64,000 nucleotides of DNA, taken from NCBI GenBank assembly GCA_030066975.1, contig JASJAO010000004.1:248001-312000 (forward strand), in the 5' to 3' direction. How positions within the stretch are numbered: the first letter of the stretch is position 1; each line of letters opens with the position of its first letter. Positions 11,906 through 19,246 of this stretch are shown here, one piece after another. The notes under the pieces are model-generated. The model had not been told where the DNA came from and did no database searches. It saw nothing but the letters and a program-made list of their open reading frames with translations. The translations under genes were made by a program, and so were the position numbers. Source of the DNA: Henriciella sp. (lineage in GTDB: Bacteria > Pseudomonadota > Alphaproteobacteria > Caulobacterales > Hyphomonadaceae).

Positions 11906-12325
11906 TCAATCAACGCCCTTTACGTCATTCCACTTCACCAGGGCCTCATCTGAGAGAGCGCCCAATTGTTCAAACATTTCCGGCGTGCAGACATATTCCG
12001 CTTCCGCCGTTTCAAACTCTGCCAGAGTCATCATCGAGACATCAATCGCCCGTTGAACCGTCTCCACGGGCAGACTCGACAACACAACCTCTTCCACGAA
12101 GGTCTCGCTGATCGTCGAAGCTTCGTCGCCGCAGACATTAATCAGTCCCTGATGATACGCCACCGCCTTGGCCATTTCTTCCATTTGGTCGGCGGAGATA
12201 TTGATCATACCGACTGTGGAGGTGGCATCAATCTCCGCGATCACATCCTCGGCCAGCGGGGCTGGCTCGCCGCACCCTGTCAGGACGGCGGCGCTTATCA
12301 TCCCGCCGAACACGCCAGATCTCAC
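11906..12325 (-). CDS. Small lipoprotein coupled to pdhC, unknown function
   Basis: 139 residues from a GTG at 12325 that overlaps the pdhC stop by 4 bases (GTGA), the usual sign of translational coupling. The start gives a short lipoprotein signal peptide (RSGVFGGMISAAVLTGC) with lipobox LTGC and lipidated Cys18; residue +2 is Gly, consistent with outer-membrane sorting. The mature domain is acidic with two cysteines (INVCGDEA and YVCTPEM) that could form a disulfide. No family is recognised. A longer frame into pdhC exists but destroys the lipobox context. Confidence 0.7.
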   Translation of the reverse strand: MRSGVFGGMISAAVLTGCGEPAPLAEDVIAEIDATSTVGMINISADQMEEMAKAVAYHQGLINVCGDEASTISETFVEEVVLSSLPVETVQRAIDVSMMTLAEFETAEAEYVCTPEMFEQLGALSDEALVKWNDVKGVD

Positions 12326-13677
12326 AACAGCATGCTCTCTGGCATTTCGACATAGCGTTTGAACGCCTGCAGCCATTTTGCGCCTTCTGCCCCGCCAATC
12401 ACACGGTGATCACAGGTGAGCGTCACACTCATCACCGTGCCGACAGTCAGATTGCCGTCTGCGCCGACAACCGGGCGTTTCTCACCGCCACCGACCGACA
12501 GGATCATGCCCTCTGGCGGATTGATGATGGAGGCGAAATTCTTGATCCCGAACATGCCGAGATTGGAGATGGAGAAGGTTCCGCCCGTATATTCCTGAGG
12601 CTTCAGTCTCCGCTCGCGCGCGCGGGCGGCGAGGTCTTTCATCTCGGCCGAGATCTCAGCGAGCCCTTTCGCCTGCGCATCAAAGATGACCGGCGTGATC
12701 AGACCGCCATCAATCGCCACCGCCACAGAAACATTGGCGGACTTGTGATAAGCGATGCCGACATCGGTATAGCTCGCATTACAATCCGGCTCGGCCATCA
12801 GCGCCATGGCCGAGGCCTTGATCAACAGATCGTTGACGGAGATTTTCACCCCTTCGGGCGCGGCATCATTAATGCCCTTGCGGGCCGTCAGCAGCTTGTC
12901 CAACTCGATATCCACCGAGAGCGGGAAGTGCGGCACCTGCATGAAGCTCTGCGTCAGGCGCTTGGCGACGGTGCGACGCATCCCGTCGAGCGGAATCAGC
13001 TCATAGCTGTCCGGCGCATAGATGCGATCATCAAGCACTTGCGGCAGGATCAGACCGTCCGGCGACGCAGGCGCGGGTGTCCGATCGCTTCTCGGCACCA
13101 CATCCGTTCCGGGTTGCAAGTTTTCGACGTCTTTCTTGACGATCCGCCCACGCGGGCCAGAGCCCTTGCCGTTCAGCGCGGAGAGATCAATGCCCTTGAG
13201 GGCTGCGATACGACGCGCCAGGGGTGAGGCTTTGATCCGGGTCTCGCCCTTGCTGGCGGATGGGAGCTCCACAGGGGTGGAGGCGAGTGCCCCCTCGGTC
13301 TGCTTCGCAGACACCTCCCCCGCAGGCGGGGGAGGATCGCCCGCCGCAGCTTCCTTACCTCCTCCCCCGCTCGCGGGGGAGGTGCCCCCATCGGGGGCTG
13401 AGGGGGCCTCTGCCGAAATCGCCGAAGCATCTTCCCCTTCCTCGGCCAACACAGCGATCAGCTCATTGACCTTCACACCCTCAGTGCCTTCATTCACCAG
13501 GATCTGCGCGACGACGCCATCGTCTATCGACTCAACTTCCATCGTCGCCTTGTCGGTTTCGATCTCGGCGATGACGTCACCCGCCTCGACCGTGTCGCCG
13601 GGCTTGATGTTCCACTTGGCAAGCGTGCCTTCTTCCATTGTCGGGCTGAGGGCGGGCATCGTGATATTGATTGGCAT
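12322..13677 (-). CDS. pdhC: Dihydrolipoyllysine acetyltransferase (PDH E2)
   Basis: 451 residues. The lipoyl domain (1-80) carries the lipoylated Lys43 in [14 protein letters not shown] long low-complexity linker follows (about 85-145). Next come the E1/E3-binding domain (about 147-187, ASPLARRIAAL...GSGPRGRIVKKDV) and the catalytic core to the C-terminus. The start is the ATG at 13677, 2 bases after the pdhB stop with GAGGGG upstream. Two oddities: residues 91-130 of the linker are encoded by a palindromic repeat found elsewhere in the window, and the active-site motif usually read DHRxxDG is CDHRVIGG here (His424, Gly428 in place of Asp). The gene is otherwise full length. Confidence 0.95.
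   Translation of the reverse strand: MPINITMPALSPTMEEGTLAKWNIKPGDTVEAGDVIAEIETDKATMEVESIDDGVVAQILVNEGTEGVKVNELIAVLAEEGEDASAISAEAPSAPDGGTSPASGGGGKEAAAGDPPPPAGEVSAKQTEGALASTPVELPSASKGETRIKASPLARRIAALKGIDLSALNGKGSGPRGRIVKKDVENLQPGTDVVPRSDRTPAPASPDGLILPQVLDDRIYAPDSYELIPLDGMRRTVAKRLTQSFMQVPHFPLSVDIELDKLLTARKGINDAAPEGVKISVNDLLIKASAMALMAEPDCNASYTDVGIAYHKSANVSVAVAIDGGLITPVIFDAQAKGLAEISAEMKDLAARARERRLKPQEYTGGTFSISNLGMFGIKNFASIINPPEGMILSVGGGEKRPVVGADGNLTVGTVMSVTLTCDHRVIGGAEGAKWLQAFKRYVEMPESMLL
13288..13407 (-). repeat. 120-bp composite palindromic repeat inserted in frame in pdhC
   Basis: The outer arms GCCCCCTC (13289-13296) and GAGGGGGC (13400-13407) are perfect inverted repeats. Inside are two 22-bp palindromes (13314-13335 and 13361-13382), each built of CCTCCCCC and GGGGGAGG arms around a short centre. 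The same arrangement occurs between rpmF and a hypothetical gene at 18755-18870. The copy spans exactly 40 codons (E2 residues 91-130), without stop or frameshift, in the flexible linker. It behaves like a REP/RPE-type mobile repeat domesticated in a coding sequence. Confidence 0.85.
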
Positions 13678-18568: not shown

Positions 18569-18871
18569 GGTCTCAAATCCAGTCGATCGAGGGCTTGAGG
18601 CCCCGTTAAAATCAAACCGGGCGTATACAGGTGCGAGAAAGGTCACGCAAGGGGGAGATTGAAGTGATCGCTGCTGGAAGCAGCACTTGCGACCGCGGAC
18701 GCGGCTTTTGGTGAATAGATTTTGGTAGAAGAGGGTTGCGCGGTGAAGAGACCTGCCCCCTCCGAGCGCTTTGCGCCCACCTCCCCCGCGGGCGGGGGAG
18801 GATAGAACCGGAAGCGCCTCAGGCCATCCTCCCCCATTTATGGGGGAGGTGCCCGGAGGGCGGAGGGGGCT
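18569..18871. other. Intergenic stretch between rpmF and the Trp-rich gene
   Basis: 303 bases without a convincing gene. The first 185 bases should hold the rpmF promoter, though no clear -35/-10 pair was picked out. The last 116 bases are the palindromic repeat described separately. A 64-residue open frame here (18643-18837) is created by the repeat and is not a gene. Confidence 0.6.
18755..18870. repeat. 116-bp composite palindromic repeat, intergenic copy
   Basis: The outer arms GCCCCCTC (18755-18762) and GAGGGGGC (18863-18870) enclose two 22-bp palindromes at 18780-18801 and 18828-18849, each with CCTCCCCC and GGGGGAGG arms. Order, spacing and arm sequence match the copy inside pdhC; the internal spacer differs. 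One minus-strand frame reads [16 protein letters not shown], against [16 protein letters not shown] in pdhC. It ends one base from the stop of the Trp-rich gene. Confidence 0.85.
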
Positions 18872-19246
18872 TTAGCTGGAGTCTTCGATCGCCGGCAAAG
18901 CTCGCGCCGCTTGAGACCCCGCGCGATGCATGACCCGCTCGCCGCATTCCATGATCCGGCCCATCCAGAAGTGGATGGCGCTGAGGTGCATCTCGCCGGA
19001 TTCATTGTAGATCGCGTACCAGTGTGGGCGATAGAGCTTGGCCTGTTGGCGGCACCAGGCGGTGAGGTCTTTCTCGTCGTCGGAGACATAAGTCACCCAG
19101 ACTTTACCGTGCTCGTCAGCCTGCCAGAGCACTTTGCGTTGGTTCACCCGGCACCAGCGCTTCACGGCAAACAGCTGCCACCACACCCATGGCCAGAGAT
19201 AGACCGGGAGGTGCTGTACAGCAGACAGGGTGAAGCGGATGTCCAT
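18872..19246 (-). CDS. Trp-rich hypothetical protein
   Basis: 124 residues from the ATG at 19246. It is unusually rich in tryptophan (LWPWVWWQLFAVKRWCRV near the start, then W at AWCRQQ, HWYAIYN, FWMGRIM) and basic. No signal peptide or clear membrane helix beyond a short hydrophobic stretch at about 12-26. No family is recognised. No good Shine-Dalgarno precedes the ATG, and the frame continues upstream through repeat sequence, so the start and even the gene are uncertain; amino-acid content looks protein-like from 19246 onward. Confidence 0.5.
   Translation of the reverse strand: MDIRFTLSAVQHLPVYLWPWVWWQLFAVKRWCRVNQRKVLWQADEHGKVWVTYVSDDEKDLTAWCRQQAKLYRPHWYAIYNESGEMHLSAIHFWMGRIMECGERVMHRAGSQAARALPAIEDSS

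Follow-up and report, generated by a model that had tools for sequence, protein, structure and literature searches.

A REP-like palindromic repeat in frame in the PdhC linker of Henriciella sp., and in-frame relatives in loops of other enzymes

In the 64,000-nucleotide stretch of Henriciella sp. DNA analysed here (the window), a palindromic repeat lies inside pdhC, the gene for the dihydrolipoamide acetyltransferase (E2) of pyruvate dehydrogenase. We consider it highly probable that this part of pdhC is a copy of a REP-like family that now stands, in frame, in linker codons and is read as linker peptide. Judged by its sequences, the family is one of REP-like palindromic repeats and is common in the bacterial order. 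Repeat DNA seems to become protein sequence in places where the protein tolerates it. A copy of the dimer would have come into the part of pdhC whose codons specify the flexible linker joining the lipoyl domain to the E3-binding domain, the frame being kept, and would be read as a Pro/Gly/Ala-rich linker peptide of 40 residues. We infer that the element arrived by insertion, that the inserted stretch is translated and that it is close to neutral, selection having presumably purged insertions that were out of frame or harmful.

The palindromic dimer in pdhC

The pdhC gene occupies 12322–13677 on the minus strand and codes for 451 amino acids. Its product carries a lipoyl domain (residues 4–77), an E3-binding domain (148–185) and a catalytic domain (224–451), all assigned by Pfam. 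These limits place the linker at residues 78–147, and residues 91–130, the 40 Pro/Gly/Ala-rich residues read from the element, therefore fall inside it; the rest of PdhC is intact. The first-pass annotation of this DNA had described a repeat that encodes residues 91–130 of a flexible linker and keeps the frame, and the 451-residue coding sequence with its intact domains bears this out.

The element is a palindromic dimer of 119 nt (13289–13407, assigned to neither strand), recognised by a covariance model, a recoding test and reading of the sequence. Along the plus strand, an outer arm GCCCCCTC of 8 bp (13289–13296) is followed by a perfect 6-bp hairpin, GTCTGC-TTC-GCAGAC (13298–13312), and by a 22-bp palindrome with perfect 10-bp arms (13314–13335). 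A spacer whose minus strand reads GGAAGCTGCG (13336–13360) leads to a second 22-bp palindrome, again with perfect 10-bp arms (13361–13382), a second perfect 6-bp hairpin, GCCCCC-ATC-GGGGGC (13384–13398), and the other 8-bp outer arm, GAGGGGGC (13400–13407). An intergenic copy lies at 18755–18870 on the plus strand, with 10-bp arms and 22-bp palindromes at 18780–18801 and 18828–18849. The arms and 22-bp palindromes that the first-pass annotation had reported at both places are present; the two 6-bp hairpins of the pdhC copy were absent from its list. Its figure of exactly 120 bp counts one flanking T beyond the symmetric unit of 119 nt, and the exact inserted length cannot be fixed because pdhC offers no clean empty site.

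Membership in the family was assessed with a covariance model (R1) built from an alignment (A1) of seven full intergenic copies, among them the copy at 18755–18870; the pdhC copy was excluded. R1 nevertheless matches the pdhC copy with 71.5 bits (E 1.7e-12 in the window, E 9.3e-11 in the whole genome), E-values that are rough according to the tool's own warning. The spacer word GGAAGCTGCG recurs in the spacers of three of the seven intergenic copies in A1, and GGAAGC is found in all seven. An Rfam search of the window returned no match.

PdhC linkers are rich in proline and alanine, and linker codons for Pro, Gly and Ala could in principle have come to resemble the repeat by accident. We generated 2000 synonymous recodings of the 40-residue peptide, drawing codons at the frequencies of six genes of the window. 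The recodings form on average 5.9 hairpin base pairs and at most 25, where the pdhC copy forms 32. In similarity to the family they average 28 and reach at most 60, where the pdhC copy scores 84; none of the 2000 comes up to either value of the pdhC copy. On the strength of this test we take such convergence, which the spacer word common to the pdhC and intergenic copies also contradicts, to be excluded and scarcely credible. We strongly favour the reading of the pdhC copy as a REP-like dimer that stands in frame in the PdhC linker.

The relation between the pdhC copy and the one at 18755–18870 is looser than the first-pass annotation had supposed. A peptide matching that of pdhC can be read from the intergenic copy, but the frame that gives it holds a stop. 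The two copies had also been assigned the same coding orientation, a claim that finds no support: GGAAGC lies on the coding strand of pdhC, but in the intergenic copy the matching peptide comes from the strand opposite to that word. By the model, too, orientation is indistinct, as the two strands of the pdhC copy score 71.5 and 70.0 bits.

Across the family, a half unit consists of a palindrome of 22–24 nt (CCTCCCCC-loop-GGGGGAGG), a short second hairpin and an end like CGGAGGGGGC. The dimer of about 118 nt is made of two half units facing each other, and the reversed arrangement is seen too. Half units are found alone and as reversed pairs, which suggests that the module, as in REPs, is the half unit. 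In the second hairpin, pairing is kept between arms that differ wholly from one copy to another (GTCTGC/GCAGAC, GTCAGC/GCTGAC and CCCACAGCC/GGCTGTGGG are examples). The best second hairpin has a mean of 4.1 bp, against 3.1 in shuffles, and 27 distinct best hairpins occur; the gain is modest, the copies are related, and the count is over 92 half units, those among 182 ends in which both boundary motifs are present. In 81 elements of at least 100 nt, a mean of 3.6 of the six reading frames is open, against 2.9 in base shuffles. Element length is divisible by three in 42 of these 81, a figure that is no test, since the copies are related.

Orthologous linkers and other in-frame targets

By its named pdhC relatives, the genus stands near Henriciella of the Hyphomonadaceae. 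We located pdhC in 27 of its 29 genomes. Comparison of coordinates gave no R1 place inside pdhC in any of the 26 genomes other than that of the window. Nine of these (G001, G003, G006, G008, G011, G015, G016, G024 and G028) have no R1 match anywhere at E <= 1e-3, and the closest by PdhC is among the nine. Among 80 pdhC loci from named records, R1 matches the linker in L035 (E 1.4e-8), L065 (E 4e-4) and, weakly, L093 (E 0.013). A further 29 pdhC loci (L111–L139, the best 29 of 60 relatives) gave no R1 match at E <= 1. Among the matches listed for the genome of the window (2 of 8), pdhC is the sole close one; the other is the lipoyl part of the neighbouring gene, and the remaining matches are weaker.

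Between the same flanks of the linker, near relatives carry some 25 native residues rich in Pro and Ala. The element in the window's pdhC stands in place of this stretch and not beside it, so the case is one of replacement, or of insertion followed by loss, and not of clean insertion. In the PdhC linker of G003 (L111) we found a different, CGTC-like repeat, ATCCCCGCCTGCGCGGGGAT. Its pattern has 23 matches in G003, none in a reversed-pattern control and none in G013. Linker hairpin pairs of similar look to that of G003 occur in G013 (L121, p 0.003), L081 (p 0.01) and L067 (p 0.023). In the linker hairpin test as a whole, six of 109 pdhC linkers, the window's included, reach p <= 0.01, the two locus sets behind the 109 linkers overlapping in organisms; L067 (0.023) and L065 (0.096) lie above this threshold. 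We take the signal in the L085 linker (p <= 0.01) to be chance in GC-rich sequence. As a separate observation, the pdhC linker of L094 (a Salaquimonas MAG) encodes SPHPEVRAERASPS, which may be a third repeat family read in frame.

The more distant pdhC of L035 holds an element of the same type, in the same frame and at the corresponding position. This would be expected if the element were an old feature of pdhC, inherited and lost in most relatives instead of having been inserted in this lineage. Such a history would require many losses among nearer relatives, and the presence in G003 of another family at that position suggests that gain has happened more than once; we consider an inherited element improbable. 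A quite different alternative is that the pdhC element is kept for a function, either because hairpins in the mRNA pace translation between domains or because the element supplies a better linker peptide. The perfect pairing of all four hairpins in the pdhC copy would fit this, as would the Pro/Gly/Ala-rich composition of the coded peptide, given that Pro and Ala abound in native E2 linkers. The patchy occurrence in pdhC, the different repeats that other genomes hold at that place and the similar inserts in unrelated enzymes all argue the other way, and we give a functional explanation little credence. We continue to favour a nearly neutral insert that the linker would tolerate.

The family also stands in frame in other genes, which were named by NCBIfam (PdhC by Pfam). 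In all, 11 in-frame places were found: one in pdhC, two in GlyS, seven in a ligase-associated DEXH helicase and one in an error-prone DNA polymerase. For pdhC, GlyS and the DEXH helicase, orthologues that lack the insert were found as well. The suggestion in the first-pass annotation that linkers serve as tolerant sites holds for PdhC and is too narrow for the family, as loops of globular enzymes are hit as well.

In GlyS, the affected loop lies between the motifs YY and HYKP and measures 15–16 aa in 21 of 29 genomes and 54–65 aa in the other eight. Two of the eight long loops are of R1 type (G025 and G004), and in the remaining six no R1 match reaches E <= 0.1. Five of these, G002, G022, G015, G014 and G013, hold a CGTC-like dimer at almost the same position, and G011 holds another hairpin repeat, identified by eye. 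The pattern TCATCCCGG...CCGGGANCC matches inside GlyS of G002, G014, G015 and G013, and does not match G022 exactly. Genome-wide, this pattern has 28 matches in G002, 19 in G014, one in G015, 88 in G013, nine in G022 and none in G000 or in the control, so the repeat in the GlyS loop is multi-copy in four of the five genomes and not in G015. Alignment to the GlyS chain of entry 7yse breaks at the loop (query 418 to 461, chain 423 to 420); the stretch is therefore absent from this solved enzyme.

The DEXH helicase gene was read in 28 genomes and has two affected sites. Site 1 measures 12–13 aa in 24 genomes and 26–65 aa in four. Of these four, G025 is of R1 type, G019 holds a lone half unit that R1 matches weakly (E 0.005), and G009 and G020 hold something else. 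Site 2 measures 37–38 aa in 23 genomes, 45 aa in one and 89–112 aa in four, all four of R1 type. Leaving the insert aside, the helicases of G021 and G004 share 96–98% identity, and that of G021 lacks the insert. An LSPIHREGT-type peptide is found at site 1 in L284 and L283 (G009 and G020), and occurs twice in G009; it stands outside the palindromic family.

We tentatively propose that the PdhC linker, one GlyS loop and the helicase loops are recurrent docking sites at which unrelated palindromic families swap in frame, REP DNA acting as an exchangeable peptide cassette and a repeat already present perhaps serving as the target for the next. We hold this proposal to be rather unlikely as it stands.

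Spread of the family and possible movers

The genome of the window holds 17 places at E <= 1e-3 (unique places among 27 R1 rows). Across the genus, R1 matches occur in 13 of 29 genomes, and in a sample of the order, searched with stricter filters that may miss weak matches, they occur in 85 of 150 genomes from 22 of 31 genera. The first-pass annotation had conceived of an independent element, analogous to the Rickettsia palindromic elements (RPEs) and belonging to this lineage. The evidence supports an RPE-like palindromic element that stands in frame at a tolerant linker, and its spread over the order goes well beyond one lineage. That annotation had also named two findings that would speak for coding convergence, the same linker DNA in all related pdhC genes and a lack of other genomic copies; the element-free orthologues and the 17 places run counter to both.

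All seven A1 copies fall into two groups that share 580–850 bp of further sequence, so they amount to about two independent copies within this genome. In G000, contig C22 begins inside a copy of the element (L028, positions 1–26), so copies may interrupt the assembly, and the number counted is a minimum.

We examined the context of all 91 R1 places in the 13 positive genus genomes. Eleven lie in frame inside conserved genes, a count to which two helicase places of L196, overlooked by the simple gene caller, were added by hand. The other 80 comprise 73 places that simple gene calling puts between genes and seven that overlap the end of an open reading frame. Neighbouring genes on the same strand gave 22 pairs that might each be a single gene split by an element. 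In the 10 pairs tested, none had the look of a split gene: eight are two different named genes, and in two, one side has no name.

Two open reading frames accompany copies of the element. One of 124 aa (18872–19246, minus strand) lies beside the intergenic copy and has DNA relatives in L023, L025, L026, L029, L169, L171 and L172, seven loci all selected for an element; Pfam and PHROGs gave no name for it or for its relative in L023. The second, multi-copy and 213–253 aa long (L019, L020, L021, L022 and L167), sits in a repeated block of about 850 bp with the element at its edge. It had no Pfam match in the three members tested and no PHROGs match in two.

Candidate movers of the family would be an enzyme acting in trans, an enzyme already lost, or template switching at hairpins. 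The first-pass annotation had called the repeat mobile and suggested a RAYT-type transposase as a partner to look for. We regard mobility as putative; no accompanying RAYT-type gene was found, and by eye the flanks of eight elements show no obvious target-site duplication. The genome of the window holds no match to Y1_Tnp (PF01797), which was found in three of 29 genus genomes and in 30 of 150 order genomes. In the order, the element is present in 22 of 30 RAYT-positive genomes versus 63 of 120 RAYT-negative ones (Fisher p 0.042, kinship ignored), a cross-count which assumes that both searches drew the same 150 genomes. The corresponding figures for the genus are three of three versus 10 of 26 (p 0.078). 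This co-occurrence is a hint in favour of RAYT, weakened by the 63 of 85 element-positive order genomes that have no such gene. Given this weak association, those 63 genomes and the lack of PF01797 in the genome of the window, we rejected RAYT as the mover.

Proximity was examined at 28 of the 45 Y1_Tnp loci listed. In the stretch of sequence around the gene, 26 of the 28 have no R1 match at E <= 0.01. L320 has one match about 1.9 kb from the Y1_Tnp match. L310 was considered as a case of an element near a RAYT gene and rejected: its R1 matches are weak and about 0.8–1.4 kb away, and by eye the gene sits between copies of another repeat. That RAYT-type gene (L310, 1100–2540) is flanked by copies of a GGGACAGACACATTT-containing repeat that may be its partner.

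Another possibility is that no transposase was involved in the spread of the family, and that recombination, gene conversion or template switching from hairpin to hairpin produced the copies. The grouping of the seven intergenic copies within larger duplicated blocks would fit such a route, as would the lack of a RAYT association able to explain the family and, in GlyS, the presence of one repeat type at nearly the spot of another. Against it, the pdhC copy resembles the other copies of its genome over the element alone and not over the flanks. We regard spread without a transposase as possible, if on balance unlikely, and retain insertion of the element as the preferred route into pdhC.

Comparison with known palindromic repeats

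The host of the element family belongs to an order other than that of Rickettsia and is not an obligate intracellular bacterium. The available part of PMC10969869 describes RPEs as palindromic elements of about 150 bp in many copies, nearly half of which lie in frame inside unrelated genes of R. conorii. The family described here is likewise palindromic, multi-copy and found in frame inside unrelated conserved genes. It differs from RPEs in being built of two facing half units with two hairpins each, a distinction drawn from description, and in that 80 of its 91 genus copies lie outside conserved genes.

CGTC REPs, as far as the available text of PMC3733652 describes them, are facing pairs of short palindromes, mostly from alphaproteobacteria, with no associated transposase and with known intragenic copies; they have an unpaired CGTC, TGTC or CCTC tag, a stem of 8–9 bp, a loop of 4–5 nt and a CCA tail. 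To the extent of that description, our family shares with them the facing palindromes and the lack of a transposase of its own. Unlike them, it has no unpaired tag in the eight sequences read, CCTC being part of the stem, and in place of a single 8–9 bp stem with a 4–5 nt loop it has palindromes with 10-bp arms, a second hairpin and an end like CGGAGGGGGC. The CGTC-like repeats in the PdhC linker and in GlyS are another family in the same loops. GTAG REPs, in the portion of PMC3733652 available, form facing and reversed pairs, are mostly intergenic with some intragenic copies, and are associated with RAYT. Within the bounds of that account, the present family resembles them in its facing and reversed pairs and its mostly intergenic, partly intragenic copies; it differs in having no unpaired GTAG tag (again in eight sequences read) and no tie to RAYT. 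Like a MITE, it is short and non-coding with terminal inverted arms; unlike a MITE, it has half units that occur alone. By eye, no target-site duplication is obvious in the flanks of the eight elements read, and a parent insertion sequence was sought among Y1_Tnp genes.

The same partial source (PMC3733652) reports GTAG and CGTC REPs inside coding regions of many bacteria, including those of DnaE2, helicases and tRNA synthetases, proposes linkers and loops as neutral sites for REPs, and notes that recB was struck at about the same site in two Xanthomonas species. Two of our four target genes encode DNA-damage enzymes, in agreement with a remark on repair genes in that text. In-frame REPs (PMC3733652) and RPEs (PMC10969869), as far as the available parts of these sources go, show that the phenomenon was already known. 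We found no report of the untagged two-hairpin family in the open-licence literature, which does not prove that it is unpublished, nor one there of different families making use of the same PdhC linker and GlyS loop. It is this reuse of the same loops by different repeats that we consider the interesting part. Orthologues with and without inserts in the same loops of housekeeping enzymes form a natural series. With it, an old question can be put to the test: are peptides coded by repeats neutral passengers, or do they alter protein function, and by what means do REPs lacking a RAYT move? Set beside the known systems, these observations add to the palindromic repeats that insert in frame a family that is common within the order and carries neither a GTAG nor a CGTC tag.
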